64,000 nucleotides of DNA. Source: an uncultured Luminiphilus sp. (GTDB lineage Bacteria; Pseudomonadota; Gammaproteobacteria; Pseudomonadales; Halieaceae). Under the pieces are notes generated by a model. That model did no database searches, had not been told where the DNA came from, and saw only the letters and a program-made list of their open reading frames with translations. Below, one piece after another: positions 3,520 through 25,160 of the stretch (position 1 is the first letter of the stretch; each line of letters opens with the position of its first letter). The stretch is from positions 85,879 through 149,878 of the forward strand of contig CALSVI010000001.1 in assembly GCA_943840615.1 (NCBI GenBank), read 5' to 3'. Position numbers and translations under genes: made by a program.

Positions 3520-5220
3520 TTAATCGGTGTCGGGTGTTGAGGTCTGATTTTTCTTCAGCCGGTAGGCAAAGGCGGGACGGGTCAGGCCCACCAAGCGCGC
3601 GGCTTTGGAAACCTTACCTCCTGCCTTTTCCATTGCCCGAGTCAGAACAGCCGTTTCAATGTCTTCGATACTGATCTCTTGCTCAATTAAGTGCTCTGCG
3701 ATGTCTGCCAGACCGCTCAATACCGCACGGTCTGCGGTTTTCACCAGTTGCCCATCGCGATCCAGTTCATGCGCATCCACGGTAGTGTCGGCAATAGTGG
3801 GCGACAGCACCATGTCGAGATTGATGGAGGTATTGGGTTCGGTCAGGATGATGGCGCGCTCAATGACGTTTTCAAGTTCCCGAATGTTGCCCGGCCAGTC
3901 GTAGGCGAGCAGCAGATCGCTGCTTTTGTCACTGATACCCGATATCGGTTTGCCGTGTTCACGAGAGTACTTCTTGAGAAAAAAATCCAGAAATAACGGG
4001 ATGTCCTCTCGGCGCTCGCGCAATGACGGGATGCGCACTGGATAGGCAGAGATTCGATAGAAGAGATCAGAGCGGAAACGACCTTCTTTAACCGCCGACG
4101 CGAGATCCTCATTGGTTGCCGCCACGACTCTGACATCGATTTTACGGACCGTGTTATCTCCCAGCCTCTCGAGCTCTTGCTCTTGTAATACTCGCAGCAG
4201 GCTGGCTTGCGCCCTTGCCGAGAGTTCAACCACTTCATCGAGAAAAATAGTGCCGCCGTCGGCACGCTCAAACTTACCCGGCCGTGTCGACGAGGCTCCG
4301 GTAAAGGCTCCCTTGGCAACGCCAAACAGTTCAGATTCGATCAGATCTTGCGGTATGGCGGCGCAGTTGACCGCAACGAACGGCTTTTTGGAGCGGTCGC
4401 TAAAGCGATGCAGTGCCCGCGCCATGACCTCTTTACCCACACCGGTCTCACCCAAAAGCAATACCGAGACTTTGCTGTCGCCAGCCTTGGTGACCATATT
4501 GAGCGCTGTTTTGAAGGGCTTTGAGACGCCTACAATATCAGTCAGCGCTTCTTTCGTTTCCTGATGGAGATCAATCTGGTCGACTTGATCTTTCAATACA
4601 TTCAGCTCGGCGATCACTGAATCAGGCTGGTAGTAAGCGCGCTGTTGTTCGGGGTTTTCGCATTGAGAGACATGCCGGCCCACGGCAAAGCAGTGATCGT
4701 CGCCACAGGAGCCGCATTCCAATTCTTCGAAGTAAATTTCGTAACCCAGAAAATGCGTGGAGTAACCAGTGGCGTAACCAACCAGGGTCCAGCACGCCGG
4801 TTCGCTTAACTCAGGCAGCTCGGCCTGGACGATCCCTACTTCCCAGGAGTTATGCCACTCGACGTCGCACACAAAATCTTCAGGTGTATCGGTGATGGTC
4901 AAGTCACGGAGCTTGGGCAAGACCATTCCACGCAGTGCATGAAGTTGGGGTCCGATGAGGAACCGCTTACTGAGGGGCGTTACGTCATGGCTGTTGCGTG
5001 CGAGTTCGCCGTCGAGCCGACCCAGCTGAAATCCTAATCGTAAGAAAAAAGGTTTGGCTCGCTCGAGTCCGATTGTATCGAATACTTCCCTGCGAAATTT
5101 GCCGAGCGCAGCTTGCGAGAACAACATGATGCGCTGCTCGTTGAGCCAAACCTTTCCCTCAGAAATAGCAAAAGAAAGTTGTGGTGTAACATTTTCGAGC
5201 TGAAGTTCAAGATCAGGCAT
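3520..5220 (-). CDS. dmpR: XylR/DmpR-type sigma-54-dependent activator, probably phenol-responsive
   Basis: A 566-residue enhancer-binding protein with an XylR-type N-terminal sensor plus V4R domain (about 10-180), a linker, an AAA+ domain (about 228-465) and a C-terminal Fis-like helix-turn-helix (about 525-557). Walker A is GETGVGKE (257-264), the sigma-54-contacting GAFTGA is at 304-309 and Walker B FLDE at 326-329. In the sensor, Cys143, Glu166, Cys169, Cys172 and Cys177 match the zinc-site region of DmpR/MopR. His94 (GPQLHAL) and Trp122 lie where phenol-type sensors carry ligand-contacting residues. It is the obvious activator for the two sigma-54 promoters at 14.5-15.0 kb. No clear ribosome site precedes the ATG. 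Confidence 0.92.
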   Translation of the reverse strand: MPDLELQLENVTPQLSFAISEGKVWLNEQRIMLFSQAALGKFRREVFDTIGLERAKPFFLRLGFQLGRLDGELARNSHDVTPLSKRFLIGPQLHALRGMVLPKLRDLTITDTPEDFVCDVEWHNSWEVGIVQAELPELSEPACWTLVGYATGYSTHFLGYEIYFEELECGSCGDDHCFAVGRHVSQCENPEQQRAYYQPDSVIAELNVLKDQVDQIDLHQETKEALTDIVGVSKPFKTALNMVTKAGDSKVSVLLLGETGVGKEVMARALHRFSDRSKKPFVAVNCAAIPQDLIESELFGVAKGAFTGASSTRPGKFERADGGTIFLDEVVELSARAQASLLRVLQEQELERLGDNTVRKIDVRVVAATNEDLASAVKEGRFRSDLFYRISAYPVRIPSLRERREDIPLFLDFFLKKYSREHGKPISGISDKSSDLLLAYDWPGNIRELENVIERAIILTEPNTSINLDMVLSPTIADTTVDAHELDRDGQLVKTADRAVLSGLADIAEHLIEQEISIEDIETAVLTRAMEKAGGKVSKAARLVGLTRPAFAYRLKKNQTSTPDTD

Positions 5221-7495: not shown

Positions 7496-7520
7496 AAAAA
7501 ACCCCCCCGAGTACGGGGGG
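7496..7520 (-). terminator. Rho-independent terminator of the YCF48-RND-DUF1302-DUF1329 operon
   Basis: On the minus strand a six-pair all-GC stem (C6 at 7503-7508 with G6 at 7515-7520) is followed by six T residues (7496-7501 read as A on plus). It begins about 16 bases after the DUF1329 stop and separates that operon from the downstream GST gene. Confidence 0.85.
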
Positions 7521-7535
7521 CTGAAGCACACTGTT

Positions 7536-8849
7536 TTATCGTCCTGTTGCGCGCATGTTTTGCGGCGTGAACAGGGACGTGGGGTTCAGACTGGGATCGA
7601 CCTGTCCTTTGAACTGTCCAGTAGTACAGTGTTTCGCTTGCACATCGACCATCGAGAAGGAGTCGTCGATCGAGACACCGCTGCCCTTGTTGGCTTCTAG
7701 GTGATGCTCAGGATCCGCCTGCCCAATGATGAAAGTCTTCCAGAGATTGCCAGCACGGTCATAAATGTTGGTGCGGGGAATCGTGAAGGTCTGGGCGTCG
7801 ATGTAGTGCACACGCTTGCCAATCGGATGGTTGGGATCCACCGGCGTCGATTCGAGGATGTAGGCTTTGCGAAGCTGCCAATCGATGACTGGGAAACACC
7901 CGCCTTGGCCAGCGAAATCCACAAATTTGTAGCCATCTTTTTCAGGATTTTTCACGTCTGCATCGACAAGAGGCAAATCGTTATGGTGGTAGAACGGCAG
8001 TAGGACATCCACGGTGCCACCGTAGGTCCAGCTCTGATCTGACACACGGCCGTTGTAGCCCTCGAAATCCTCGATCATCAAATCAGAGCCAAGGAAAGCA
8101 TCGGTGACCTGACCTGTCGCCAGGCGGCGGACACGCCGTTGAAAGCCTAGGTATAGCCACGCGTTATCGCGCTTTAGGTCGTCCACGTTGCGCTGAATCA
8201 GCAGCTGCGTGTTTTTCACATCGAACGGATCTAGTACCTGAACGTAAATTCCCCTGAACAGATTATCGGGTGGGATGCTGGCGCGGCCCTCAGGGTCGTT
8301 AACGCGGCCTTTGTAGTTTAAGAAATGGAAATTAAACTTCAGCGTTCGCTCGATATTACCCGTGTCGTAATTGCGGTACTTCCAGAAAAACGGGTAAATC
8401 GCGGCGTTGTCACCCCAGTTGTAACCATACTTATAGTTCCAAGCGAGCTTCTCGCCGGCTCTGGGGTCATTTTCGTCAGGGTCGCCAAGGAAGGCTCTGC
8501 CCGCTACCCAGCCGGAAATAGCGCCAACTTCGTCACCCAGCTCGGTGGATCCCAGGTTATCCCGCGTGGCCTGAATGTACTCAGGGTGGAGGTCGAACGA
8601 TGTCGTCTCCATCACACGCATTTCATACATGCCTGACGAAATGTAGTCATACATCGCGGGATCAAGCACGTCCTTGAAATCGCCCGCGGTGCTTGACGTG
8701 ATCGTCATTCCCGCTTCGAGGCCTTCATAACTGGGTACAGCGTCTTTGTATGGAAAGAACGACTGATCTATTTGTGCATCGGCGTCAGCGTAGGTCACGC
8801 CTGACCAGGAACTTATCAATAATGCCCCGGCAATCATTTTCAGTTTCAT
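7536..8849 (-). CDS. DUF1329 family exported protein (copy 1)
   Basis: A 437-residue protein with a signal peptide (hydrophobic 5-16, cleavage near Tyr-Ala-Asp). Family landmarks are DPRAGEKLAWN, DAFLGSDLMIEDF, GGCFPVIDW and the end MRATGR. DUF1329 proteins are secreted, LolA/LolB-like beta-rich proteins of unproven function, nearly always next to a DUF1302 outer-membrane gene, as here. Last gene of the operon, 67 bases after DUF1302, with AGGTGA before the ATG. A paralogue lies at 26324 on the other side of the phenol operon. Confidence 0.9.
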   Translation of the reverse strand: MKLKMIAGALLISSWSGVTYADADAQIDQSFFPYKDAVPSYEGLEAGMTITSSTAGDFKDVLDPAMYDYISSGMYEMRVMETTSFDLHPEYIQATRDNLGSTELGDEVGAISGWVAGRAFLGDPDENDPRAGEKLAWNYKYGYNWGDNAAIYPFFWKYRNYDTGNIERTLKFNFHFLNYKGRVNDPEGRASIPPDNLFRGIYVQVLDPFDVKNTQLLIQRNVDDLKRDNAWLYLGFQRRVRRLATGQVTDAFLGSDLMIEDFEGYNGRVSDQSWTYGGTVDVLLPFYHHNDLPLVDADVKNPEKDGYKFVDFAGQGGCFPVIDWQLRKAYILESTPVDPNHPIGKRVHYIDAQTFTIPRTNIYDRAGNLWKTFIIGQADPEHHLEANKGSGVSIDDSFSMVDVQAKHCTTGQFKGQVDPSLNPTSLFTPQNMRATGR

Positions 8850-8916
8850 CTGTTCACCTTTTTATCAGTTGTGTTCATCTGATGTTCGCGGGCCGCAGTG
8901 ACCCGTGAACTCATGC

Positions 8917-10959
8917 TTAGAAACGATATCGAACGATCAGTTGAAGCTCGTCTTCTTTTGCTGCCATGCCGATCGGTCCGGAACGGAAGCGACCCAGCGG
9001 CTCGAATCCGCCAAGACCCGCAGAGCCTGAAACGGTGCCATTACCGTGCTCGGGCAACGGAGGGATCGATGTCGTGAATGGGCCAAACGGGTTACACAAG
9101 CGACAGTCATCGAAGACCTCGTCTTCACCCCCGGTTTTGATGTTGGCCTTAAAGATCACCTGCCAGTTGTCGCTGATCAGCCAGTCAATAGACGGCTCAG
9201 CCACGAAGGCACCTGCCCTGAAGTCGTAAGCCATGATCAGTTGCGGGCTCAAACGGTCAGCCAGCCACCAACCTTTGATGAGGAAGGTGCCGATGAAGTT
9301 GGTTTCCCAATCTGGCATACCAACCTTGCCCAACGTGGCTTGCTCGATTTCGTGGTCGACCAAATGTTGGCCGAACAGCTGGGCCGACAGCAGGAAAGCC
9401 CGCCGGTTGTTAAGTGGCCGGAAGAAGACGTTTTTGTCTGCACCGATGACGAAACGGAAAACATCACTCTCGGAGTACAACTCCTCGCGCAGGGTGTTTG
9501 CGAACTCCTCGCCTTGCGTATACGCCGCCTCAACTCGGAATACTGTGTCGATGCTTTGAGAGTAGTAATCCACCGAGCCACCGAACATGTTGATCCGAGG
9601 GAAATACACATCAAACGCGATTAAGTGATCCCAGGTCTGCGCAGGGCCACCAACAAACGGGTTGACCACCTCCACGCCGCCAGCGCGGAGAGAGGGCAAC
9701 TGCGATCGATAGGTCATTGCATTGATCGACCAACCCAAGTCGCCATAGACACCCTCAAACTTGATGCCCAACTGCGTGTTGCTTAAAGACCACTCAGGCA
9801 GGTTCACGTTGCGAATACCGATGGTGTTGGGTCCGAAGTTCGTCGCCAAAAGTCCCTTAGAGGGGTCCGCGGGGTCAAATGGCGCAAAGTTCGCCACCGT
9901 GCCGCCGTTATCCCACAGGTTCTTCATGCCACGGAAGAAGCACCCTGCGTCAAGAATGACGTTGGGCGTGCCACATTGCCCCAGATTGTTGGGACGGAAC
10001 TGATCGAAGTTCCATACAATCTGTGCGTTGAGGTCATCGAAAACTCCGGTCGGGCCGAAACGGAAATCCGTGGTCAACATCCACATCGGAATCCGAATAT
10101 CCTCCAGCTCGTCGTAGATGTTATTTCTTGAGAAGTCGACCGGATTAATGATGTCGAGTACGCGGAATAAGTCTGTTCGACCCCAGATTACCTGCTGCTT
10201 ACCAAGGCGAAAGTTGATCTCGTTATCGCCTTGCCCTAACAGCGTTGCATCGACATACAACTCCCGGAGCCAGTCGAGGCGATCGCTATAGATTTCGGGT
10301 GAGGCCAGTTCATTCTCGTCGAAATCCATGTAGTCCTTGATGCAGCCGCGACTGTCGACATCACAAGGCCTGACCGGCACACCAAAGGCGACGCCTGCAC
10401 CATGAGGGCGTAAATGGTCTCCCAGTGTGATCATGCCTTCATTGGGGTTGTTGATGTAACCATCGAGAAAAGTGTTGGCACCCAGCGGTCCGGAGACTGC
10501 TCCCGGTGGCGCGCCCACAATCTCTTCAACGCGCGGTCCCAAAATGTTGATCACAGCGAAATTACCGACGGCGAGGCCGCCTGCTGGGCCAAGACCGGAG
10601 CCGTTCGCCGGGATGGATGTGGGTGCGCCAATGTTGGCCAGACCGTAAGAATTTACGAAGGCCTGACCGCCGGCCTCGTCGCCATAATCTTTGCTGTTGA
10701 GGCGATGGACTTGGTCATAAGACACGCGAAGTACGCCATTCACGCTGACGTTGGAGAAGGGTCCGACATTGCCGATAAACTTCAGGCCCTCGAGCTGCCC
10801 TAGGGTGCGAAACTTCGACAGGCCAATGTCGTCCCGGTAGTGTGTTGCTTGTTCGACGAAGCCAGACCACTCGGTCTCGTCTGCCAAGGCGGTTTGTTGG
10901 TGAGCTCCACTCACAGCCAATGTGGCTGTGAGCGCAAGAGCTGTGCGTTTAATAACCAT
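8917..10959 (-). CDS. DUF1302 family outer-membrane protein
   Basis: A 680-residue protein with an N-terminal signal peptide (cleavage near ALADE) and a C-terminal phenylalanine in LIVRYRF, the usual end of a BAM-inserted beta barrel. Typical segments include LRELYVDATL, RLGKQQVIWGRTD and the central DUF1302 barrel repeats. Members are large outer-membrane proteins of unknown substrate, often paired with DUF1329 and an RND pump in hydrocarbon, steroid or aromatic degraders. GGAGAG precedes the ATG. Confidence 0.9.
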   Translation of the reverse strand: MVIKRTALALTATLAVSGAHQQTALADETEWSGFVEQATHYRDDIGLSKFRTLGQLEGLKFIGNVGPFSNVSVNGVLRVSYDQVHRLNSKDYGDEAGGQAFVNSYGLANIGAPTSIPANGSGLGPAGGLAVGNFAVINILGPRVEEIVGAPPGAVSGPLGANTFLDGYINNPNEGMITLGDHLRPHGAGVAFGVPVRPCDVDSRGCIKDYMDFDENELASPEIYSDRLDWLRELYVDATLLGQGDNEINFRLGKQQVIWGRTDLFRVLDIINPVDFSRNNIYDELEDIRIPMWMLTTDFRFGPTGVFDDLNAQIVWNFDQFRPNNLGQCGTPNVILDAGCFFRGMKNLWDNGGTVANFAPFDPADPSKGLLATNFGPNTIGIRNVNLPEWSLSNTQLGIKFEGVYGDLGWSINAMTYRSQLPSLRAGGVEVVNPFVGGPAQTWDHLIAFDVYFPRINMFGGSVDYYSQSIDTVFRVEAAYTQGEEFANTLREELYSESDVFRFVIGADKNVFFRPLNNRRAFLLSAQLFGQHLVDHEIEQATLGKVGMPDWETNFIGTFLIKGWWLADRLSPQLIMAYDFRAGAFVAEPSIDWLISDNWQVIFKANIKTGGEDEVFDDCRLCNPFGPFTTSIPPLPEHGNGTVSGSAGLGGFEPLGRFRSGPIGMAAKEDELQLIVRYRF

Positions 10960-11033
10960 AAAACTTGCTCTCCGTTTTTATAAAATTAGCAATAGCACAT
11001 TGAAAACCCCGTGCCGCGTTCTTCTTATGTCTC

Positions 11034-11051
11034 CGTGGGGTAAACCCCGCG
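11034..11051 (-). other. Intercistronic hairpin after the RND gene
   Basis: A seven-pair stem (one mismatch) with a TTTA loop on the minus strand lies immediately after the RND stop and before DUF1302. There is no T-tract directly after it, so it is more likely a transcript-stabilising or processing hairpin than a terminator. Confidence 0.45.
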
Positions 11052-11055
11052 GCTC

Positions 11056-13392
11056 CTATTTTTCACTTTCAATAAATGCAGGTTTGGTCACCAGTATCCA
11101 TGCGGGTACCAACACCAGCGCTGCCAGTGCATTGAGTACCACCATGACCGACAGTAACAATGCGGCGTCGGCCTGGAACCGCAGGTCCGATAGGAAAACC
11201 CACATGATAATTCCCGCGATGAGCGTTATGGCCGTGAAGGAAATGGCTAATCCGGTGCTGGCCATCGCGCCGCGCACGGCAGCAAGTAGATCGGCTGAGG
11301 TGGCCCGCTGCTCTCTGATCCGATCCATCATGTAGATTGAATAATCGATACCGACGCCAATCCCGACAGCAATGACGGGCACGGTGTTGATGTTGATGCC
11401 CACACCGGCTAGCCCCATATAGGCGTAGGTGAGTGTCGTGGCAAAAGACATCGCCAAAAACATCATGAAGCCTGCGCTGAGTGAGCTGTAAAAAATCATA
11501 ACCGTGGCGAAGATAAGCGCGAACACGAGGGGCAGTACTAGCTGATTGGTCTGAAATGCCGCTTCATCCATCGCCGCTGTCACGCCAATGGTGCCGCCGG
11601 CCATGCGCACTGTCAGGCCGGGTACGGCACCCTCATTTGCGTCGATCCATTGTCGAGCGGTGTGAATGGCTCGGCGAATGGTCTCTCCCTGATGATCTTT
11701 GTAATAGAAGACAAGGTTCGCCTGCTGCTCGGCCGGATCGATAAATTCCTTCAACGCGCCGGGAATGGGGCTGGATGCCATATAAGCGAACAGTAGCCCA
11801 CCGACGTACATGTCATCCTTGGGGATCTGCTGCCAGCGCGGATCGTTGTTGTGTAATAAGCGATTGACCTGCTTTACAAGATCGGGGATGCCCTTTGCAC
11901 CACCGACTTCGGGATCGAGCAGCATATGCCGTTCAAAGTCAGCCAGTGCAGCGAGCACGTCGGGCCGTTTGATGCCGCCCGGCTCATCTGTTTCTGCGAC
12001 GATGTAAAGTTCTTCAGATCCGGGGAAACGCTCATTGATGATGCGTGATCCCACGTTGTAGTCATGGCTTTGGTAGAGGATGGGTGAGCCGGGCTCGGAT
12101 TCCCCTATGGTGACTTGGGATGCGGCGAGCAAGCCCGCCGCGATGAGGCACGCAGAGGCCAGCAACAACCCGCGCGGGTTGTGTGTCACAAATGCGCCGG
12201 CCCAATCGCCGAAACGAGACAGTGCGCCTTGGCTGGTTTGCTTGGTTTTTTGTGCCGGCAAGATTGATAAGGCGGCAGGCAGTGCAATAAGAACGGTGGG
12301 GATAATGCACAGTGCCCACAAAGAGGCGTAGTGCGCGAGTTTGGTGTTGAGCGGTATGGAACCGACCGCGATCAGCAACAGGCCAATGGCGTCAGATACT
12401 ACGCCCAGTGTGCCCGGTCTGAACAAGCTCTTAAAGGTGCCCGTTGCGGCCTCTGCGGCAATTTTTCCTGTCTCGAGTTCAGCGTAGTAGCGTTTAACGA
12501 TTTGAATGCCATGTGACATGGCTCTCGCAGAGATCAAAAAGGGAATCACCAACCCGAGAGGGTCTAGGTTGTAGCCCAGCATCGCAATGATGCTCAGACC
12601 CCAAATCGAGGAAATCAGCACGCCCATGAGCGGTAACATGACGCCGTACGTGGAACGGAAATGCACCAGCAACAGCGCGATCATGATCAGCGCGGTGAAG
12701 GCGAGTATCTGGAAGATCTGACTCTTGTAATGGTAGGCCCACCCAATGAGCACGGGCTGTCCGGTCGCGTAAATGCTGATACCCGCGGTTTTGAATTCCT
12801 CACGCAAAGCCTGCAGCTCTTCGAAGGTGACCTCGTAATCCAGCGCACCCTCGTTAAGCTGGGCCTTGACCAACGCCATCTTCATGTCGGGTGAGATCAG
12901 TGGTCCGTAAACAATGGGATTGGCAACCACTGACTTTTTGAGCGCGGCGAGCTGGTCCTTGCTAAGAGCCGGGTCCTGCGGCTGGTAATAGGGGTCAGAC
13001 ACGATATTGCCCAGCTCGGTCAGCCACACTTTGCGCGTCGTGCGGTGAGTGAAACTGGTCACCAGATTGTGATTCACACCCGGAAGCTCATCCACGGCTT
13101 GCGTGACTTGATGAATCAATTGCAGGGTATCGTTGGTGAAGATGTCACCCGATTCGACCGAGACGCCCACAATGATGACGTTAGCGCCACCGAATCCGTC
13201 TTTAATCTCATTATGGAGCTGAATATAAGGGTGCGACTGGGGTAGCAGGTCGGCAAAGTCAGAGTACATTCGGACACCGGAGACCTGTGCCAGACAGAAA
13301 ACCGTGATGGCGCCGATGAGGGCTAGATAGGTTTTAGGCCAGGTAAATACCGTGCGCTCTACTACACTGGCAAGTCGCCCACCGACGCTCAT
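11056..13392 (-). CDS. MMPL/RND superfamily transporter
   Basis: A 778-residue inner-membrane protein with the RND/MMPL two-fold plan: one TM segment near residues 19-37, a large periplasmic loop, a block of about five TM segments (about 225-375), another TM near 410, a second loop, and a final TM block (about 620-770). The conserved GIGVGIDYSIYMMDRI carries the proton-relay-type aspartate in the last block. Its class (with HpnN) moves hydrophobic molecules across or out of the inner membrane. Its ATG overlaps the upstream lipoprotein stop (ATGA), indicating coupling. Confidence 0.9.
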   Translation of the reverse strand: MSVGGRLASVVERTVFTWPKTYLALIGAITVFCLAQVSGVRMYSDFADLLPQSHPYIQLHNEIKDGFGGANVIIVGVSVESGDIFTNDTLQLIHQVTQAVDELPGVNHNLVTSFTHRTTRKVWLTELGNIVSDPYYQPQDPALSKDQLAALKKSVVANPIVYGPLISPDMKMALVKAQLNEGALDYEVTFEELQALREEFKTAGISIYATGQPVLIGWAYHYKSQIFQILAFTALIMIALLLVHFRSTYGVMLPLMGVLISSIWGLSIIAMLGYNLDPLGLVIPFLISARAMSHGIQIVKRYYAELETGKIAAEAATGTFKSLFRPGTLGVVSDAIGLLLIAVGSIPLNTKLAHYASLWALCIIPTVLIALPAALSILPAQKTKQTSQGALSRFGDWAGAFVTHNPRGLLLASACLIAAGLLAASQVTIGESEPGSPILYQSHDYNVGSRIINERFPGSEELYIVAETDEPGGIKRPDVLAALADFERHMLLDPEVGGAKGIPDLVKQVNRLLHNNDPRWQQIPKDDMYVGGLLFAYMASSPIPGALKEFIDPAEQQANLVFYYKDHQGETIRRAIHTARQWIDANEGAVPGLTVRMAGGTIGVTAAMDEAAFQTNQLVLPLVFALIFATVMIFYSSLSAGFMMFLAMSFATTLTYAYMGLAGVGININTVPVIAVGIGVGIDYSIYMMDRIREQRATSADLLAAVRGAMASTGLAISFTAITLIAGIIMWVFLSDLRFQADAALLLSVMVVLNALAALVLVPAWILVTKPAFIESEK

Positions 13393-14432
13393 GGTGAATC
13401 CTCAGTGGATTGGTTTGCAGGGTCGCCCAGTTGGGGTGTCTCGGATAGCGGGAGCTGCTGTAGCAAACCCCAGCCACCGGCCACCAATAGACCACCGTTG
13501 AACGCGGTTGCCGCAGCAAAGTGGATGGGCGTCTCCAGAGACGGGTGCGTCACCCATCGCATTTGGCTCGATTCATACACTAAGAGTGTGCCCAGATCTC
13601 CAAAGGCAAAAACCCGGTCGCCGCTTTCGGTGAAGCCATAGATAGACGCTTGGGTTTCAGAGAGCTCTTTCGACCAGCTCTCGCCCCCATCTTTTGTCGC
13701 GTAGATCACACCCAGTACGCCACTTACCCACCCGGTGTTGGCGTCAGTGAAGTAGACATCAAGCGGGTAAAAATCCTCAGCGATAGGTGCCAGGATGTCC
13801 CAGGTCGCACCTGAGTCAGTGGATTTTGCAAACGTACCAAACTCGCCAGCGGCAAAACTGGTGCCCGTCTGTGGCACAAAACTCATCGCCGTCAACGTGA
13901 AATCGTCGTAGAAGCTGTGATCAACCCAGTCAGTGCTGCCCGGGGGACGCGACAGGAGGGTACCGAACGCGCCAGAGGTCCAAAGCGTGCCATCAGAACT
14001 GCAGGCAACGTCTTGTAATTGTTCCTGAGTGTCAACGGCCTCCGCCTGCCAACCGCCCCCTGCTAGTGTCCAAATTTCATTTTCGAAGCTGAGTGCGACG
14101 ATCGAGCCGTCGGGACAATTGGTGCTCGCCAAAAAAGTGGGTTGCGGCAATCCAGATTCTCTCGCGGCCAGCACCTGCCGCCGCCAGGAGAGTGCACCGT
14201 TTTCAGCAGTGCCGAGTAACACAACTCCATTGTCAGCCAACGCGACGATTGAATCCGGGCCTGACGGTGAGACGGCGAGGAACTGGTCGGTTCTGAGCAC
14301 GGGCTGCGCGAGTGTCGCCTCGACACCGTCAAGTCTCAGTTCTGCCTCGCAACCCAGCAAGCAGCCGAGCAGACTCAGTGTCATCAGCGCGGAATGCTGT
14401 GAAATGCGTCTTTCGGGGTGTTGAACCCTCAA
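13389..14432 (-). CDS. YCF48/BNR-repeat lipoprotein
   Basis: A 347-residue protein starting at TTG 14432 with GGGAG seven bases upstream. A signal with lipobox LLGC is followed by a beta-propeller-like series of repeats (for example TSFAAGEFGTFAKS, TGWVSGVLGVIYATKDGG, RVFAFGDLGTLLVY) like photosystem II assembly factor YCF48. It probably sits in the periplasm anchored to a membrane as a partner of the RND pump. First gene of the four-gene operon, 128 bases downstream of a minus-strand sigma-54 promoter. Function unproven. Confidence 0.83.
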   Translation of the reverse strand: MRVQHPERRISQHSALMTLSLLGCLLGCEAELRLDGVEATLAQPVLRTDQFLAVSPSGPDSIVALADNGVVLLGTAENGALSWRRQVLAARESGLPQPTFLASTNCPDGSIVALSFENEIWTLAGGGWQAEAVDTQEQLQDVACSSDGTLWTSGAFGTLLSRPPGSTDWVDHSFYDDFTLTAMSFVPQTGTSFAAGEFGTFAKSTDSGATWDILAPIAEDFYPLDVYFTDANTGWVSGVLGVIYATKDGGESWSKELSETQASIYGFTESGDRVFAFGDLGTLLVYESSQMRWVTHPSLETPIHFAAATAFNGGLLVAGGWGLLQQLPLSETPQLGDPANQSTEDSP

Positions 14433-14558: not shown

Positions 14559-14575
14559 TGCAAATATGATGCCAA
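14559..14575 (-). promoter_or_regulatory. Sigma-54 (-24/-12) promoter for YCF48-RND-DUF1302-DUF1329
   Basis: On the minus strand the sequence reads TTGGCATCATATTTGCA, with the -24 GG and -12 GC ten bases apart as sigma-54 requires. It lies 126 bases upstream of the TTG start at 14432. Outside the five-base spacer it is identical to the plus-strand promoter at 15015. Confidence 0.8.
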
Positions 14576-14722
14576 TATTGCTTGGGAAGCCGAAATGCCT
14601 TGCAGTGAGTGCTTTGTTGCTGGTATCGGGACTCCGCGTCACCGCACCGCTGGATGGCGGGAGGTGCTCTGCCTTCCGTTTTTAATTACTACATTAAAAA
14701 TGACGATTCTGCGGCCAGAAAA

Positions 14723-14740: not shown

Positions 14741-14878
14741 GGGCTGGATTGAAGTCTCATCACCATGGAGGACATGGCTGTTACCAGCGCTAATCAAATA
14801 GGAGGTTACAGTGGCGTCGATGGCGATCGTTGTTCCTATTTGAATCATGAGTTTTACTATTTAGATAAAAAAAGCTCT

Positions 14879-15014: not shown

Positions 15015-15031
15015 TTGGCATACCTATTGCA
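15015..15031 (+). promoter_or_regulatory. Sigma-54 (-24/-12) promoter of the phenol catabolic operon
   Basis: TTGGCATACCTATTGCA places GG (15017-15018) and GC (15029-15030) exactly ten bases apart and matches the sigma-54 consensus closely. Transcription would begin near 15042, leaving about 95 bases of leader before dmpK. Activation by the DmpR-like protein at 3520 is expected. Confidence 0.85.
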
Positions 15032-15137
15032 GGCGGTAAATGGAGAGCAATTTCCGTAAAGAGTACTCCGTTGCGGCGACCAGTCCGGTGGAAACCTTGA
15101 CTGCGGTCAGCGAGCGACCCTTCAGGGAGTGATCAGC

Positions 15138-15479
15138 ATGACAGACGACACATCGAAGACTGCCAAGTTAACGTTGGTACCGGGGAATCCGCTCAAGACG
15201 GCAGACCATTTGCCTCGCTACGTCAGAGTCACCGAGCGATTGCCTAACGGCGTGATCGCCTTCGATTTTGCCGTTGGCACTCCCGATATGTTCGTCGAGT
15301 TGATTCTGCCAGAGGACGCGTTTGAGGCTTTTTGCGAGAACAACAGTGCGGTTCATATGACACTGGAGCAAAGCGCTGAAGTCGATCTCGAAATGGAAAA
15401 ATATCGCTACGGCGAAGAGGGTATGGAGTTAAAGCGCGCGGCCGCAAGGATGCGTAGTGGGGAAAACGAACCATCGTGA
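15138..15479 (+). CDS. dmpK: Phenol hydroxylase accessory/assembly subunit (DmpK-like)
   Basis: A 113-residue protein of the phenol hydroxylase P0 family, proposed to help iron loading or assembly of the oxygenase rather than turnover. The family core is the segment from YVRVTERLPNG to FVELILPEDAFEAFC. ATG 15138 is chosen over GTG 15129 because GGGAG lies about eight bases upstream of it. It heads the operon and is followed at once by the oxygenase beta subunit. It is somewhat longer than DmpK. Confidence 0.88.
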   Translation: MTDDTSKTAKLTLVPGNPLKTADHLPRYVRVTERLPNGVIAFDFAVGTPDMFVELILPEDAFEAFCENNSAVHMTLEQSAEVDLEMEKYRYGEEGMELKRAAARMRSGENEPS

Positions 15480-15522
15480 TGGCGCGGGCTCTAGCCTGCA
15501 CCGGTGAATCTGGGACAGTCCA

Positions 15523-16512
15523 ATGACCTTAGAAATAAAAACATCGAATATCAAACCCATCAGAAATACCTATGGGCACATTGCGCGCCGTTTTGGCGAT
15601 AAGCCGGCGTCGCGGTATCAGGAAGCCACCTATGACAATGCGGCGCTGGTTAACTTTCACTATAAGCCATTGTGGGATCCTGACCACGATCTGAACGATC
15701 CGCGCAGAACCGCGATTCACATGGAAGATTGGTACGCGCTGAAGGACCCCAGGCAGTTTTATTACGGCACCTATGTACAAAACAGGGCGCAAATGCAGGA
15801 GAAAGCAGAAGGTAACTTCAGTTTTTTCGAAAAGCGGGACTTGGGAGCGCGGTTGTCAGAAGACGTGTTGAGCAAGTGCGTGCGCTTTCTGCTGCCGTTA
15901 AGACATGTCGAGCAAACGGCGAACCTGAATAACATGCACTGCTCAGCGAGCACGAATTACTGTACCGCGCTCGCGCAAGCCACAAAGTTTGAAGCCATGG
16001 ACCGACTTGGCAACGCACAGTACTTTTCGAGGGTCGGCCTTGCATTGGATGGCAATTCAGGTTCCACGCTGAATGAAGCAAAAGAGTTTTGGATGACGGA
16101 CAGCGCCTGGCAGGGAGTGAGAGCTCTCTGCGAGAAAACGCTAACGGTCAAGGATTGGTATGAGACCTTTTTGGCACAGAATTTGGTCTTCGATTCCCTG
16201 CTCAACGACCTTTACTATCGCCAGATGGATGCATGGTTGAGCGTCAACGGTGGACAGGACCTGCTGATTCTGCTCGATTTCATGTCATCCAGGCTGACTG
16301 ATTCACAGAGATGGGTCGATAGCGTTGTAAAGTTGACTGCGGCAGAGAGCGACGGGAATAAAGAGCTGGTGCAGTCATGGATTTCAGCATGGCGCATCTC
16401 CGCGCAACAAGCCCTTGAACCGCTGGCCTCGGCCATGTTGGGTGAGGAAGCCTTGGCCGACGCGTTCTCTGCATTGGAAACCCGGCTTGGAAAAATCGGA
16501 CTTGGGGGTTAA
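15523..16512 (+). CDS. dmpL: Phenol 2-monooxygenase oxygenase beta subunit (P1, DmpL-like)
   Basis: A 329-residue structural subunit of the diiron oxygenase. It has the same helical ferritin-like fold as the alpha subunit but no diiron ligands. Recognisable segments are RRFGDKPASRYQE, YKPLWDPDHDL and the DPRQFYYGTYVQNRA region. It pairs with DmpN (alpha) and DmpO (gamma) to form the (alpha-beta-gamma)2 hydroxylase of phenol to catechol. Confidence 0.95.
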   Translation: MTLEIKTSNIKPIRNTYGHIARRFGDKPASRYQEATYDNAALVNFHYKPLWDPDHDLNDPRRTAIHMEDWYALKDPRQFYYGTYVQNRAQMQEKAEGNFSFFEKRDLGARLSEDVLSKCVRFLLPLRHVEQTANLNNMHCSASTNYCTALAQATKFEAMDRLGNAQYFSRVGLALDGNSGSTLNEAKEFWMTDSAWQGVRALCEKTLTVKDWYETFLAQNLVFDSLLNDLYYRQMDAWLSVNGGQDLLILLDFMSSRLTDSQRWVDSVVKLTAAESDGNKELVQSWISAWRISAQQALEPLASAMLGEEALADAFSALETRLGKIGLGG

Positions 16513-16520
16513 CGGCGAAG

Positions 16521-16793
16521 ATGGCTAGAGTACAGATCGCGTTTCAGGACAACGACGAGTCTCGTTACATCGTCTCAGCAATTGAAGAGGACAACCCGGA
16601 CTCGACGATTCACTACGAGCCAGCGTTGATTCGCATCGAGAACGAAGGCTCGTTACAGATAAATAAAGCGACAGTAGAAGCCCACATGGGAAGAGAGTGG
16701 GACGTTCAGAGTATCCACGTCAACCTGGTCACCCTGACCGGTAATATTGATGAAGACGACGACTATTTCAAACTGGCTTGGGGCGGCCAATAA
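16521..16793 (+). CDS. dmpM: Phenol hydroxylase regulatory (effector) protein, MmoB/DmpM family
   Basis: A 90-residue cofactor-free effector protein (P2) that binds the oxygenase and couples oxygen activation to substrate. The core reads ALIRIENEGSLQI and DVQSIHVNLVTLTG, matching DmpM. Eight bases separate it from dmpL, and its stop lies 17 bases before the preferred dmpN start. Confidence 0.95.
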   Translation: MARVQIAFQDNDESRYIVSAIEEDNPDSTIHYEPALIRIENEGSLQINKATVEAHMGREWDVQSIHVNLVTLTGNIDEDDDYFKLAWGGQ

Positions 16794-16810
16794 AAATGGA
16801 GGCAACATCA

Positions 16811-18316
16811 ATGCAAGCGAAGAAACTGAATGTCAAAGACAAGTACCGTCTGTTGACCCGGGATCTGGATTGGGAGTTTTCCTACGAGGATAGAAAGGAA
16901 GCTTTCCCATATGAGGAGTTTGAGGGCATCAAAATCACGGACTGGGACAAGTGGGAAGACCCTTTCCGGCTCACTATGGACGCCTATTGGAAGTATCAGG
17001 CAGAGAAAGAAAAGAAACTGTATGCCATCTACGACGCGTTTGCGCAAAACAATGGACACCTGAACGTCAGTGATGCGCGTTACGTCAATGCGCTGAAAGT
17101 TTTCTTGACGGCAGTGAGTCCGGCAGAGTTCGCTTCCTCCAACGGGTTTGCTTGGGCGGGTCGCCATTATGGCGGTGCGGGCGCGCGCGTCGCAGCGCAG
17201 ATGCAGTCAATCGATGAGCTGCGTCACTACCAGACGCAAATTCACGCGATGAGCCACTACAACAAGTATTTCGATGGCTTCGAAGAGTTTCCACACATGC
17301 ATGACCGCGTCTGGTACATGTCCGTGGTGAAGTCTTTCTTTGACGACTGCCGTTCGTCGGGTCCCTTCGAATACATTGTTGCGGTGAGCTTTGCCTTCGA
17401 ATACGTGTTAACAAACCTGCTGTTTGTCCCGTTCATGTCGGGCGCCGCCTACAACGGTGATATGGCGACGGTGACATTTGGCTTCTCGGCGCAGTCTGAT
17501 GAAGCCCGTCACATGACGCTTGGCTTGGAAATTATCAAGTTCCTGCTTGAGCAGCACGAGGACAATGTGCCCATTGTTCAGGAGTGGATTGATAAGTGGT
17601 TGTGGCGTGGTTACCGCATTTTGGCGGTTGTCGCGATGATGATGGATTACATGCTGCCGCAAAAGTTTATGTCTTGGAAGGAAGCTTGGGAGCTGTATTT
17701 CGAGGATGCCGGCGGTGCCCTGTTCAAGGATCTTGAGCGCTACGGTATCAAGATGCCCGATTTCACCGAGACCATTAAGAACGAAAAAGACCACATCAGC
17801 CACCAGGCATGGTGGGTGTTCTATTCCCACGGCCACGCGGCTGCCTTCCACACCTGGACGCCCACGGCAGAAGAGCTGGATTGGTTGAGCGAGAAGTATC
17901 CCGACACCTTTGATCAGTACTATCGGCCTCGTTTAGAGGCGGCAGCTGAGCTTGAGGCAAAAGGGGAGCGTTTCTATACGGCAGGCCTGCCGCAGTTGTG
18001 CCAGACGTGTCAGATTCCCATGTTCTTTACGAACGTCGACGAAGGGAAGCCCACCGAGATTGTTTATCGCGAGTCGACCTATAACGACGAGCGGTTCCAC
18101 TTCTGCTCAAACGAGTGCAAGCACATTTTCGATAGGGAGCCAGAAAAGTATGTTCATGCCTGGTTGCCCGTGCATCAGATCTTCCAGGGCAACTGCGGTG
18201 GTGGCGGTCTTGACGAGGTCATGGAGTATTACCGGATGGGCCTCGGTGAGATGAACCTTGATTACAAGGGATCGCCCGATGAGAAGCGTTGGAAAAAGTG
18301 GAAGGGAGTCGCCTGA
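16811..18316 (+). CDS. dmpN: Phenol 2-monooxygenase oxygenase alpha subunit (P3, DmpN-like)
   Basis: The 501-residue catalytic subunit carries the diiron centre: the two ExxH motifs are in DELRHYQ and SDEARHMT. Long runs match DmpN closely, for example KITDWDKWEDPFRLT and FGFSAQSDEARHM. A C-terminal YHS-like cysteine segment (CQTCQ, CSNECK) is present. It hydroxylates phenol to catechol. ATG 16811 is chosen because GGAGG lies eight bases upstream and the N-terminus then aligns with DmpN. An in-frame ATG at 16796 is the alternative. Confidence 0.97.
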   Translation: MQAKKLNVKDKYRLLTRDLDWEFSYEDRKEAFPYEEFEGIKITDWDKWEDPFRLTMDAYWKYQAEKEKKLYAIYDAFAQNNGHLNVSDARYVNALKVFLTAVSPAEFASSNGFAWAGRHYGGAGARVAAQMQSIDELRHYQTQIHAMSHYNKYFDGFEEFPHMHDRVWYMSVVKSFFDDCRSSGPFEYIVAVSFAFEYVLTNLLFVPFMSGAAYNGDMATVTFGFSAQSDEARHMTLGLEIIKFLLEQHEDNVPIVQEWIDKWLWRGYRILAVVAMMMDYMLPQKFMSWKEAWELYFEDAGGALFKDLERYGIKMPDFTETIKNEKDHISHQAWWVFYSHGHAAAFHTWTPTAEELDWLSEKYPDTFDQYYRPRLEAAAELEAKGERFYTAGLPQLCQTCQIPMFFTNVDEGKPTEIVYRESTYNDERFHFCSNECKHIFDREPEKYVHAWLPVHQIFQGNCGGGGLDEVMEYYRMGLGEMNLDYKGSPDEKRWKKWKGVA

Positions 18317-18329
18317 CATCCCTTTTCCT

Positions 18330-18348
18330 GGGGGGCGGTAGCGCCCCC
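18330..18348 (+). other. GC-rich intercistronic hairpin between dmpN and dmpO
   Basis: GGGGGCG and a complementary CGCCCCC-type arm flank a GTA loop just after the dmpN stop. No T-run follows, so it is more likely an mRNA-stabilising or attenuating element than a terminator. Confidence 0.5.
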
Positions 18349-18379
18349 TCACTAATAATACCAAGTAAGGGGAATTAAC

Positions 18380-18730
18380 TTGCCGGTAAAAGCCATCCGT
18401 CCGGATTATCACGGAGAACATCGAGATGCGCGTGCAAATTTCGGTGGCGCGATTCTGGTGTACATCGATTGGGATTTTCACCGTTGGTTTTGTACGCCAA
18501 AAACTTTCCCGCTGCCCCCTGACATGCCTTTTGGTGCACTCATAGAGGCCGTTATTCCCGAAGGTTTTGGGCAGCACCCACAATTCTCCGAGATCGACTG
18601 GGGTTCTGTCGAATGGACACTGGATCACGAGCCCTTTACTCCGGATATGGGGCGAGGTATCGAGGAGCAGGGCTTTGGGCATAAGTGCATCCTGCGTTTC
18701 TCTACGCCTGGTCTGACCGAAAACATCTAG
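18380..18730 (+). CDS. dmpO: Phenol hydroxylase P4 (gamma) subunit, DmpO-like
   Basis: A 116-residue small subunit of the oxygenase. Characteristic stretches are GAILVYIDWDFH, FCTPKTFPLPPDMPFG and EWTLDHEPFTPD. It begins with TTG, placed by AAGGGG about eight bases upstream and by alignment with DmpO, which starts immediately before this region. It is the only TTG start in the operon. A hairpin precedes it. Confidence 0.93.
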   Translation: MPVKAIRPDYHGEHRDARANFGGAILVYIDWDFHRWFCTPKTFPLPPDMPFGALIEAVIPEGFGQHPQFSEIDWGSVEWTLDHEPFTPDMGRGIEEQGFGHKCILRFSTPGLTENI

Positions 18731-18744
18731 AGTGGAACGCGTCC

Positions 18745-19803
18745 GTGTACGAAGTTACGATTGATACCACAGGCGAAGTGATCGAGGTGGAGGAAGGTCA
18801 AACTATCCTTGCGGCGGCACTCCGTCAGGGTGTCTGGTTGCCTTTTGCCTGTGGCCACGGTACTTGCGCGACGTGTAAGTGTGAGTTGCTGGACGGCTAT
18901 GTAGAGCATGGTGACGCCTCACCGTTTGCGTTGATGGATATGGAGCGCGAGGAGGGGAAATTCCTAGCCTGTTGTGCCACACCCGAATCAGATTTGGTTA
19001 TCGAAGCCAACATCGATGTGGACCCCGATTTTCAGGGAATTCTCGTGGAGGACTACGCCGCCTCCGTTATCGCTATCGAATCTCTGTCGCCCACGATTGT
19101 GGAATTGCGGCTCTCACTCGACCGGCCCATGCCATTTCAGGCGGGACAATACATCAACCTCGAGCTACCGACGGTTGACCGCGCACGGGCGTTCTCGATC
19201 GCCAATCGCCCCGAAGGGGCTAACGAGGTCTCGCTCCACATTCGAAAAGTGCCGGGTGGGAGCGCGACGACCTATGTTCACGAAACGCTGGCAGTCGGCG
19301 ATGCCTTCAATGTCTCGGGTCCCTATGGCCAGTTTTTTGTTCGCACATCTGACACCAAAGACGCTATTTTTATTGCGGGCGGGACAGGCCTGTCCAGCCC
19401 CGAGTCAATGATTCTTGACTTGCTGGCGTCCGATGACACGCGCCAAGTCTATTTATTTCAGGGCGCGAGGAACAAGTCGGAGCTGTATCACCGAGACAAG
19501 TTTGAAGCGCTGGCCGCGCAACATGCCAATTTTCATTATGTACCGGCACTGAATGAGCCTGAGGCGGCGGATGAATGGAAGGGTTTTACCGGGTTTGTTC
19601 ATGAGGCTGCTGAAGCGCATTTCGATGGCAAATTTAGCGGCCATAAAGCCTATCTGTGTGGTCCGCCACTCATGATCGACGCGGCGGTCACCGCCTTGAT
19701 GAAAGGCCGTTTATTTGAGGCGGATATTCACATGGAGAAATTCCTGACTGCTGCAGATGGACAGAGCGAAATCACGCGCAGTGCACTGTTTAAGAAGATA
19801 TGA
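18745..19803 (+). CDS. dmpP: Phenol hydroxylase reductase (P5, DmpP-like)
   Basis: A 352-residue electron-transfer subunit carrying NADH electrons to the diiron site. It has an N-terminal plant-type [2Fe-2S] domain (CGHGTCATC, last cysteine in LACC), an FAD domain with RAFSIANRP, and an NAD domain with GGTGLSSP and YLCGPP. GTG 18745 gives Met-Tyr-Glu-Val, aligning with DmpP. The ORF itself extends upstream into dmpO without a ribosome site. It starts 14 bases after dmpO. Confidence 0.95.
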   Translation: MYEVTIDTTGEVIEVEEGQTILAAALRQGVWLPFACGHGTCATCKCELLDGYVEHGDASPFALMDMEREEGKFLACCATPESDLVIEANIDVDPDFQGILVEDYAASVIAIESLSPTIVELRLSLDRPMPFQAGQYINLELPTVDRARAFSIANRPEGANEVSLHIRKVPGGSATTYVHETLAVGDAFNVSGPYGQFFVRTSDTKDAIFIAGGTGLSSPESMILDLLASDDTRQVYLFQGARNKSELYHRDKFEALAAQHANFHYVPALNEPEAADEWKGFTGFVHEAAEAHFDGKFSGHKAYLCGPPLMIDAAVTALMKGRLFEADIHMEKFLTAADGQSEITRSALFKKI

Positions 19804-19806
19804 GTG

Positions 19807-19824
19807 CTCTGAAGATTTTCAGAG
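19807..19824 (+). other. Perfect hairpin between dmpP and dmpQ
   Basis: CTCTGAA and TTCAGAG form a perfect seven-pair stem with a GATT loop, three bases after the dmpP stop. No T-run follows. It marks the junction between the hydroxylase genes and the meta-cleavage genes. Confidence 0.5.
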
Positions 19825-19881
19825 TGGCAGAGGATATCTGGGTTCACCGCGGTTAAAAGTAGGGGTAAGAGGCAGACAACC

Positions 19882-20202
19882 GTGTATCGGATTGAAGTTG
19901 AGGGGACGGGGGTTGAGTTTGAGTGTGGCCCGGAGCGCAGTTTGCTGGCTGGCATGGAGGCGCAGGCAAAGAAAGCGATTGCAGTAGGGTGCCGGGGTGG
20001 TGGCTGCGGTTTTTGCAAGATCCGTATTCTCGAAGGGGACTACGATACAAAGAAAATGAGTGTGAAGTTTGTGTCGCACTCTGAACGCCTCGACGGCTAT
20101 GCGCTGTCATGCAGGGTTTTTCCCCGCAGCGATATGCGGGTGGTGGCGCTCGAAGATGTCGAGGGAAACAAAATAATAGATACGGGGATAATTAAACTAT
20201 GA
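19882..20202 (+). CDS. dmpQ: Chloroplast-type [2Fe-2S] ferredoxin, DmpQ/XylT-like
   Basis: A 106-residue ferredoxin with the cluster motif CRGGGCGFC and a fourth cysteine in ALSC. In the dmp and TOL systems this protein re-reduces and so reactivates the iron of catechol 2,3-dioxygenase oxidised by substituted catechols. It starts at GTG 19882, and its stop overlaps the dmpB ATG (ATGA), coupling it to the enzyme it would service. Confidence 0.93.
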
Positions 20203-21119
20203 AGAAAGGTGTGATGAGAGCAGGACACGTTCAAATCCGTGTTCTGGACATGGATGAGGCGGTCTCCCATTACAAGCAGCGCATGGGTCTGCTTGAAACT
20301 CATCGAGAGGGTGATCGGGTGTTTTTCAAAGGCTGGACAGAGTGCGAGAAGTACTCGGTCATTCTGCGGGAAGCCGACTCTGCTGGCATGGACTTTATGG
20401 GTTTCAAGGTCGATTCCGACGCGCGACTGGATGAGCTCCACGCAGACCTGATTGAGCATGGTCTTGAGGTAGACGAGCTTCCTGCTGGAGACTTGCCCGA
20501 CTGCGGGCGGCGGATGAGCTTCCTGGCGCCGACAGGACATCGTTTCGAACTTTATGCCGAGAAGGAAGTAACCGGGCGGCACGGCGTTGGCCATCATAAC
20601 CCTGAAGCCTGGCCCGAGGATCTGGTTGGCATGAAAGCGACGCGCTTTGATCATTGCCTATTTCACGGCGAAGATCTCGATGGCGTCTACGATATTTTCG
20701 TCAATGTTCTGGGCTTTTGGTTGACCGAGCAGGCAATGGCGGGTGAAGAGCGCGTAGCACAGTTTTTCACTTGCTCAATGAAGGAACATGAGATTGCCTT
20801 CATCAAGGCCGAGGGCAACACGGGTGCCTTCCATCATGCCTCTTTCCACCTAGAGACCTGGCAGGACGTGCTGCACGCTGCGGACATTATTTCTATGCAC
20901 GATATCTCCCTCGATATCGGGCCAACTCGTCATGGTTTGACGCACGGTGCGACGATTTACTTCTTCGATCCGAGTGGTAACCGGAACGAGACCTTCTGTG
21001 GTGGCGACTACTTCTTCCCCGATCACCCTGTGGTGACTTGGGATGCAGATAAGCTGGGCAAGGCTGTGTTCTACCACTCTCGGGAGCTCAACGAGCGTTT
21101 CCTCACCGTCACGACCTGA
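20199..21119 (+). CDS. dmpB: Catechol 2,3-dioxygenase (extradiol)
   Basis: A 306-residue type I extradiol dioxygenase opening catechol to 2-hydroxymuconic semialdehyde. Two vicinal-oxygen-chelate halves are present. The Fe(II) ligands correspond to His152 (FDHCLFH), His213 (FHHASFH) and Glu264 (NRNETF), and His245 (TRHGLTHG) fits the acid-base residue. It belongs to the XylE/DmpB group by length and sequence. Confidence 0.97.
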
Positions 21120-21129
21120 GGAAATACCC

Positions 21130-22596: not shown

Positions 22597-22633
22597 GTTA
22601 ACAGGGCTTCAACGCCCCTCTGCGAGGAAGAAA

Positions 22634-23416
22634 ATGGAACAAGCAGCGTTACATAAACTGGGTGATGAGCTTTACGCGGCGATGTGTGAGCGGCGAATGG
22701 TCGCCCCCTTGACTGAGGTTAACCCGCACTTGAGCATCGAGGATGCGTACCAAATCTCTCTGCAGTTTTTAGCCAACCGCGTTAACGCCGGTGAGGGCGT
22801 TATTGGCAAAAAGATTGGCGTAACCAGCAAAGCCGTTATGGATATGCTGGGTGTGGGGCAGCCTGACTTCGGGTTTATGACAGATGCGATGCGCCACGAT
22901 GGCGAGATGGCGATCTCCAGCGCATTGATCCAGCCCCGTGCAGAGGGCGAGATTGCCTTCCTGCTAAAACGTGATTTGCAGGGTCCCGGCGTCACGAACG
23001 CCGACGTGCTCGCCGCGACAGACGCGGTAATGCCATGCTTTGAAGTCGTCGATTCTCGCGTCAAGGACTGGCAGATCAAGATACAGGACACTGTTGCGGA
23101 TAATGCATCCTGTGGCTGGTTCACCGTCAACGAGGCGGCAGCGATCAGCCCAACGGCAATTGACCTTGCCACTTGTGGAATGGTGGTCACTAAAAATGGC
23201 AAGGTGATCTCCACTGGCGCGGGCGCCGCGGCTCTGGGAAGCCCTGTGAACTGCGTGGCATGGCTCGCCAACACGCTGGGTGAGTTCGGGATCACCCTAA
23301 AGCAGGGAGACATCATTCTCTCTGGTAGCTTGGTGCCACTGGAGCCGGTGACAGCCGGTGACGAAATGACGGTAAGAATTGGTGGTATGGGCGACTGTAC
23401 CGTGGCATTTACCTGA
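22634..23416 (+). CDS. dmpE: 2-oxopent-4-enoate hydratase
   Basis: A 260-residue member of the hydratase/decarboxylase (FAH-like) family that hydrates 2-hydroxypenta-2,4-dienoate to 4-hydroxy-2-oxovalerate. Typical segments are IGKKIGVTSKAV, PRAEGEIAF and ASCGWFTV. Length and motif spelling favour DmpE/XylJ over the sister decarboxylase directly downstream. In the dmp system the two proteins form a complex. AGGAAG precedes the ATG. Confidence 0.93.
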   Translation: MEQAALHKLGDELYAAMCERRMVAPLTEVNPHLSIEDAYQISLQFLANRVNAGEGVIGKKIGVTSKAVMDMLGVGQPDFGFMTDAMRHDGEMAISSALIQPRAEGEIAFLLKRDLQGPGVTNADVLAATDAVMPCFEVVDSRVKDWQIKIQDTVADNASCGWFTVNEAAAISPTAIDLATCGMVVTKNGKVISTGAGAAALGSPVNCVAWLANTLGEFGITLKQGDIILSGSLVPLEPVTAGDEMTVRIGGMGDCTVAFT

Positions 23417-23430
23417 GAGGGAGAGAACTC

Positions 23431-24225: not shown

Positions 24226-24237
24226 GGGTTGTGAGAT

Positions 24238-25146: not shown

Positions 25147-25160
25147 AGGAAGGTTTAAAT

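Follow-up and report, generated by a model that had tools for sequence, protein, structure and literature searches.

A predicted AmeABCD-type envelope transport operon linked to phenol-degradation genes in an uncultured Luminiphilus

How hydrophobic pollutants cross the Gram-negative envelope, or are cleared from it, is poorly understood. The question is raised by a 64-kb stretch of DNA from an uncultured Luminiphilus, hereafter the window. In it an operon of four envelope genes (positions 7536–14432, minus strand), the feature under study, is flanked by a DmpR/MobR-like activator gene, followed by tautomerase, SDR, and GST genes, and by a divergent phenol-hydroxylase/meta-cleavage operon. What would such an operon carry, and in which direction? 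We propose that it encodes an AmeABCD-type envelope transport system under DmpR control, in which a proton-driven RND–LolA shuttle would move hydrophobic aromatics, probably outward, and protect the cell during phenol degradation. Taken as a whole, we hold this proposal with slightly better than even confidence.

The observations beneath the proposal are the parts, their order, a promoter-like site, and a linkage to phenol genes that recurs across species. The mechanism would run as follows. The neighbouring DmpR-like activator likely switches the operon on through a predicted sigma-54 promoter. The RND pump, using the proton gradient, would move hydrophobic aromatics out of the inner membrane and hand them to the predicted LolA-like carrier, DUF1329, which would pass them to the predicted outer-membrane barrel, DUF1302. 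The YCF48 propeller would act as a coupling factor between pump and carrier. The outcome would be a cell that is probably protected while it degrades phenol. We infer the formation of the complex, with the propeller in this role, as well as the outward direction and the aromatic substrate.

The operon and its known counterparts

Transcription runs from a YCF48-like lipoprotein gene through an MMPL/RND transporter gene and a DUF1302 gene to a DUF1329 gene. A preliminary description of this DNA had called four envelope genes here, and all four open reading frames (ORFs) are intact, lie where it placed them, and match the families that it named (Pfam scores in Table 1). Its picture of a tight operon is also confirmed: the YCF48 and MMPL genes share an ATGA overlap, the remaining gaps are 96 bp (MMPL–DUF1302) and 67 bp (DUF1302–DUF1329), and a single terminator, a strong hairpin with a T-run, follows. 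An attenuator in the 96-nt gap was rejected, as folding there is no better than in shuffles (z −0.7). The YCF48 protein, predicted to be a lipoprotein propeller, carries the lipobox LLGC, and a lipobox is also present in 70 of 78 homologues. The predicted folds resemble LolA for DUF1329 and the OprD/AlgE barrels for DUF1302. The further claim of a single trans-envelope machine stands as far as the parts, the gene order, and the predicted folds go; on these, the four proteins may form one complex.

The four-gene set has already been described in pollutant degraders, and the window's operon is of this known kind. New here are the counts on order, on phenol linkage, on −24/−12 sites, and on paired sites among RND relatives. 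AmeABCD of Castellaniella defragrans is described as having the same four parts (DUF1302, DUF1329, COG4447/YCF48, and an HAE3 RND) in one cassette of a hydrophobe-degradation island (PMC6394551), a likeness drawn from the described part families. The described order, DUF1302–DUF1329–YCF48–RND, is a circular permutation of the window's YCF48–RND–DUF1302–DUF1329, and AmeABCD is associated with monoterpenes, whereas the window has phenol neighbours and a sigma-54 promoter-like site. With ameABCD deleted, cells are reported to grow less well on unfunctionalised monoterpenes, to tolerate them less, and, when uncoupled, to accumulate slightly more Nile Red (PMC6394551). With this phenotype and a regulon prediction in print, the preliminary description's "function unknown" was overstated. 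The prediction comes from a 2019 comparative study of Betaproteobacteria, which placed the four-gene set in the AphR, AphS, and AphT regulons and suggested that the genes have to do with the toxicity of aromatics and with stress from solvents (PMC6449761). The genes given there (COG4447, COG1033, PF07044, and DUF1302) are from Burkholderia sp. 383, Dechloromonas aromatica, and Methylibium, with distant homologues in Azoarcus (PMC6449761). As described, the Aph systems are of another lineage, and AphS and AphT belong to regulator families that differ from that of the window's DmpR-like protein, whereas AphR is of the same group.

Other sets share some of the parts. In P. putida, PP_0765 (DUF1302), PP_0766 (DUF1329), the periplasmic PP_2018, and the transporter PP_2019 are reported to share a fitness phenotype (Tween 20) and to have predicted contacts; by gene number, however, these are two separate loci, the substrate is another, and that account gives neither a phenol link nor a family name for PP_2018 (PMC10866462). 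A nanopod cluster of the benzene degrader ORM2a is described with highly expressed porin-like, DUF1329, YCF48, and MMPL proteins, but ORM2a is an anaerobic member of the Desulfobacterota and the cluster also holds stress-type proteins (PMC13101534). ApeLMN, of aryl polyene clusters, combines a LolA-like carrier with an RND transporter in a proposed inner-to-outer-membrane route for a hydrophobe (PMC8253772); it differs in having a LolB-like partner and a biosynthetic rather than catabolic setting, and its gene list, as given, includes no DUF1302 or YCF48 (PMC8253772). DUF1302 and DUF1329 genes are also reported in a Zoogloea phenol-hydroxylase cluster (PMC7012976), and both proteins among the nanopod vesicle proteins of Delftia (PMC3110197); a later nanopod study numbers five gel bands, of which one is a DUF1302 protein (PMC3958437). 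For phenol hydroxylase together with YCF48/MMPL/RND, the papers listed included no relevant report beyond one cited here, and further work may be in print.

Phenol linkage and sigma-54 promoter sites

Named genome contigs were scanned with the RND protein, and the best 80 of the 141 relatives found were compared. The four-gene order is kept in 75 of the 80 loci. Within 10 kb of the module, phenol-hydroxylase genes are present in 54 loci, these or meta-cleavage genes in 61, and a DmpR-like gene in 57. Identity of the DmpR-like neighbour is at least 45% in 52 of the 57; the five weaker matches may be other sigma-54 activators. Where at least 9 kb is available on both sides, phenol or meta genes are found in 48 of 58 loci. 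Going upstream, the first gene that could be recognised is DmpR-like in 41 of the 80 loci, a divergent dmpK in 6, dmpP in 4, dmpB in 4, and dmpE in 3, with another gene or none in the rest.

The linkage also appears when genomes are sampled by taxon. Of 58 closely related genomes, two show an RND match of at least 69%, one of them the window's own, and these are also the two with DmpO; in a sample of 37 genomes of the genus, many of them incomplete, DmpO and a close RND match occur only in the window's own. Their absence from the other 36 suggests that the island at 3520–28213 was gained horizontally. A class-wide sample took in 274 genomes, the window's own among them, with up to three candidates scored per genome and one DmpO match below the threshold treated as an absence. 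Five of these genomes contain the RND clade (50% identity or more); DmpO is on the same contig in 4/5, vs 3/269 of the others. Close RND relatives occur in Marinobacter, Halopseudomonas, Pseudomonas, Marinobacterium, and Neptuniibacter. One of 72,556 plasmids matches the RND protein (65.5%, with 85% of its length matched, in two pieces where no gene is annotated). It is conjugative, of the IncP group, and comes from a P. veronii of aniline-polluted water. The match lies beside YCF48, a sigma-54 activator, and a dmp operon, in a stretch that stops at the record end.

Promoter sites follow the same pattern. In the window, two −24/−12 sites (at most one mismatch) occur in 64 kb, both in one divergent intergenic region and each facing its own operon. 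Since 1.76 would be expected by chance, the evidence lies in their placement and orientation, not in their number. A slightly different pattern adds a third site at 38463 (+), away from both operons. The exact pattern occurs 59 times genome-wide, against 21 for a reversed-pattern control, and therefore a single site is weak evidence, whereas the relatives provide strong evidence. With ORFs of at least 200 residues and 700 bp upstream counted, a site stands before YCF48 in 58 of 77 loci (58 of 79 in a separate count), before the dmpL ORF, at the start of the phenol operon, in 40 of 48, and before unrelated ORFs in 10 of 806 (Fisher 2.5e-63, a test that, like the others, ignores the kinship of loci). 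Three loci with a degenerate −12 element, TTTGG (L003, L006, L009), were scored as lacking the site. The site sits 64–75 bases before the start codon in 40 of the 58; in three (L041, L047, L068) it falls inside the called ORF, so those starts are probably placed too far upstream. The scan of 11 loci whose RND genes are of lower identity (L116, L117, L119–L123, L128–L131) turned up no −24/−12 site.

The sites are accompanied by putative activator sites. A DmpR-type palindrome (at least 12/16) lies within 260 bases before the −24/−12 site in 55 of 58 loci, vs 1.2 in single-base shuffles, the null used throughout. Paired palindromes 28–33 bp apart are found in 46 of the 58, vs 0.05 in shuffles; a spacing of about three helical turns is described for this regulator group (PMC6449761). 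The window's weak palindrome (14682..14697) aligns with better ones in L003, L004, L006, and L009. The genome contains rpoN, and the activator near the operon is of the XylR_N type. The comparative evidence for phenol-type control of the operon is strong.

Points against the proposal, and the alternatives

Several findings weigh against outward, DmpR-controlled transport. No consensus DmpR site was found in the window with up to three mismatches, and for this reason the evidence is taken from relatives; the window's own candidate site is weak (Table 1). The reading in the preliminary description is partly supported: the phenol-type co-regulation that it proposed has good support from comparison of promoter sites, paired palindromes, and gene linkage. 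Four members of the clade in the class-wide sample (L124–L127) have no −24/−12 site before YCF48 or MMPL; in two of them, L125 and L126, dmpE or catechol-dioxygenase genes precede YCF48 on its own strand, and YCF48 may be read from their promoter. An RND/MMPL match at E ≤ 1e-60 is present in 43 of the 274 genomes, 38 of them without DmpO and five with it. Set beside the clade, where 4/5 have DmpO, this places the phenol link in the clade and not in the whole family. The recurrence of the gene order beside aromatic operons, for which a survey had been suggested, therefore holds in the orthologous clade (75/80 for order, 61/80 for phenol or meta genes) and fails, for phenol genes, in the broad family, where catabolic neighbours of other kinds were viewed in a few loci.

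Further points bear on direction. Phenol diffuses through membranes, and efflux alone could thus be futile. OprD/Occ uptake channels are as close to DUF1302 among its structure matches as the exporter AlgE. The ameABCD mutant is reported to grow poorly when limonene is the only carbon source, which fits failed uptake equally well (PMC6394551), and the P. putida DUF1302 and DUF1329 proteins are reported as needed for Tween 20 as food (PMC10866462).

The RND protein has many hydrophobic segments, and TIGR00921 (HAE3) aligns with its full length (122 bits, 2.1e-35), below the model's cut-off of 351.9 bits; the Ame RND lineage is described as distinct within HAE3 (PMC6394551). Matches in PDB include the trehalose monomycolate exporter MmpL3 and the hopanoid transporter HpnN. 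Neither a membrane-fusion protein nor a TolC-type factor, which are encoded with HAE1 pumps, is among the operon products. A TolC-type efflux pump (AcrAB-TolC type) was rejected, as the other operon products match YCF48, DUF1302, and DUF1329 only. The protein has Ser293-His294 in transmembrane segment 4 (TM4) and Asp683-Tyr684 in TM10. We compared 43 RND sequences of more than 700 residues, with duplicates removed and the RND genes of L117 and L118 outside the count. Of the 34 that have a cassette gene at most 3 kb away, 31 carry Ser-His in TM4, vs one of nine without such a gene (L122). The three linked proteins that lack it are those of L097 and L103, whose neighbours are weakly DUF1302-like, and a second RND protein of L124 that adjoins another cassette; in the eight unlinked ones that lack it the TM4 column has Asp in six and Tyr or Gln in two. 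Proton coupling may run through Asp683 with the Ser-His of TM4.

Uptake would use the same parts in reverse: DUF1302 would admit hydrophobic or alkylated phenols, DUF1329 would ferry them across the periplasm, and the RND protein would deliver them into the inner membrane or the cytoplasm, the site of hydroxylase activity. We consider this possible but rather unlikely. RND proteins of known direction are mostly exporters, and phenol itself should need no importer. The barrel is more favourable to uptake, as a BenF-like porin and an OpdK structure with vanillate are among its best matches. No FadL entry is among the matches listed, which leaves FadL kinship possible; AupAB, described as a FadL-type system, was set aside as a comparator (PMC5989066). 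Uptake is further consistent with the requirement for PP_0765/PP_0766 in Tween 20 use, with correlated PP_2018 and PP_2019 (PMC10866462), and with a Thalassolituus MMPL-LolA protein and porin that rise on n-C28 alkane (PMC6304351); the slight rise in dye accumulation reported for the ameABCD deletion speaks against it (PMC6394551). Across the 80 loci, DUF1302 is 39–80% identical to that of the window and its RND partner 60–75%. DUF1302 lengths fall into classes of ~532–612 residues (Marinobacterium/Neptuniibacter types) and ~623–731 residues (window/Marinobacter types), partial copies and L080 (515) aside.

The tie of the module and of a second carrier to catabolic operons is likewise in favour of uptake. 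A second DUF1329 gene, without a DUF1302 partner of its own, closes the meta-cleavage operon; this position ties the carrier to catabolism, and the gene is the most distinctive local feature. The literature on such clusters, in the parts consulted, makes no mention of it. Among the genomes behind 14 of the 80 loci, seven have a second copy with 49–65% identity to the window's second copy, in every case adjoining a DSBA-like gene and with dmpG (five) or a dmpE-type gene (two) in the flank; the other seven have no second copy above 45% identity. Two gammaproteobacterial relatives, one of them Pseudomonas chengduensis, have DUF1329 genes in tandem immediately after the module (L062:15809-17179, L069:15808-17178).

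It is tempting to combine these features. The YCF48-associated RND lineage would be a distinct RND class, without a membrane Asp in its first half and with Ser-His in TM4 and Asp-Tyr in TM10. Its partners would be a soluble carrier resembling LolA and a barrel of the OprD/AlgE kind, and the whole would ferry cargo through the periplasm like a conveyor rather than form a continuous duct. Within the phenol clade, the lineage would supply a dedicated DmpR-controlled importer feeding catabolism, with a second LolA-like carrier from the meta-cleavage operon. As a whole, this joint reading is decidedly doubtful.

There is a slender chance that the system instead remodels the envelope, moving a lipid of the membrane, or a molecule like one, from one membrane to the other and stiffening the outer membrane under phenol. 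The lipid-moving relatives MmpL3 and HpnN, the predicted LolA fold of DUF1329, and the proposed aryl polyene RND-LolA route, which acts on lipid (PMC8253772), are in keeping with this, but the operon contains no lipid-synthesis gene and its linkage to phenol catabolism is recurrent. Hitch-hiking of a general envelope cassette that was moved beside dmp genes and merely co-transferred would suit the sporadic island in the genus sample and the breadth of the RND family without phenol genes, but is very improbable given phenol linkage in different arrangements and sigma-54 promoter and DmpR-type sites in most loci, not found in the 11 lower-identity ones.

Neighbouring features and significance

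The features of the locus are collected in Table 1. The tautomerase-like (5346–5759) and SDR (5782–6516) genes form a pair that is also upstream of the module in L016, L017, L019, L029, and L038. Between dmpC and the next hydratase-type gene lies an ORF of 260 residues (22634–23416, plus strand); the minus-strand ORF that overlaps it (22672–23478) has no Pfam match and is probably its shadow.

Table 1. Coordinates of the operon, its predicted control sites, and neighbouring genes in the window.
Feature	Position	Strand	Evidence
YCF48-like beta-propeller lipoprotein (AmeC-type), first gene, TTG start	13389..14432	-	PSII_BNR/YCF48 (PF14870) 5.4e-12; PDB Ycf48 5ojr 3.4e-16; lipobox
MMPL/RND inner-membrane transporter (AmeD-type)	11056..13392	-	MMPL (PF03176) 8.8e-23; TIGR00921; MmpL3 alignment; TM4/TM10 columns
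DUF1302 outer-membrane beta-barrel (AmeA-type)	8917..10959	-	PF06980 6.6e-43; predicted barrel model
DUF1329 exported protein, predicted LolA fold (AmeB-type carrier)	7536..8849	-	DUF1329 3.3e-65; fold model
Intrinsic terminator of the four-gene operon	7500..7522	-	GC hairpin and T-run after DUF1329; -16.4 kcal/mol, z -2.2
Sigma-54 -24/-12 promoter-like site TTGGCATCATATTTGCA, upstream of the operon	14559..14575	-	Pattern match; same alignment position as sites in L004, L007
Candidate activator site TTAATGTAGTAATTAA, weak	14682..14697	-	10/16 to DmpR-type palindrome, shuffle mean 8.9
Candidate activator site, dmpK side, weak	14854..14869	.	Alignment with relatives
Sigma-54 -24/-12 promoter-like site, divergent phenol operon (into dmpK)	15015..15031	+	Pattern match
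DmpR/MobR-like sigma-54 activator (XylR_N, V4R, AAA+, Fis)	3520..5220	-	MobR model 3.7e-174, below model cut-off
Phenol hydroxylase dmpKLMNOP, ferredoxin, catechol 2,3-dioxygenase, meta-cleavage genes to dmpG	15129..26183	+	Sequence matches
Second DUF1329 (LolA-like) gene, meta-cleavage operon	26324..27610	+	42.6% identity to first DUF1329
DSBA-like gene (thioredoxin fold), after second DUF1329	27620..28213	+	Sequence match

The TM4 Ser-His pair offers a simple lineage marker, and a residue for probing proton coupling in such RND proteins. The phenol-linked module is widespread, and a close relative of its RND gene lies on one conjugative plasmid with dmp genes. Since its close relatives in Marinobacter, Pseudomonas, and other genera mostly have a promoter expected to respond to phenols, the direction and the substrate of this transport system can be tested in tractable strains.
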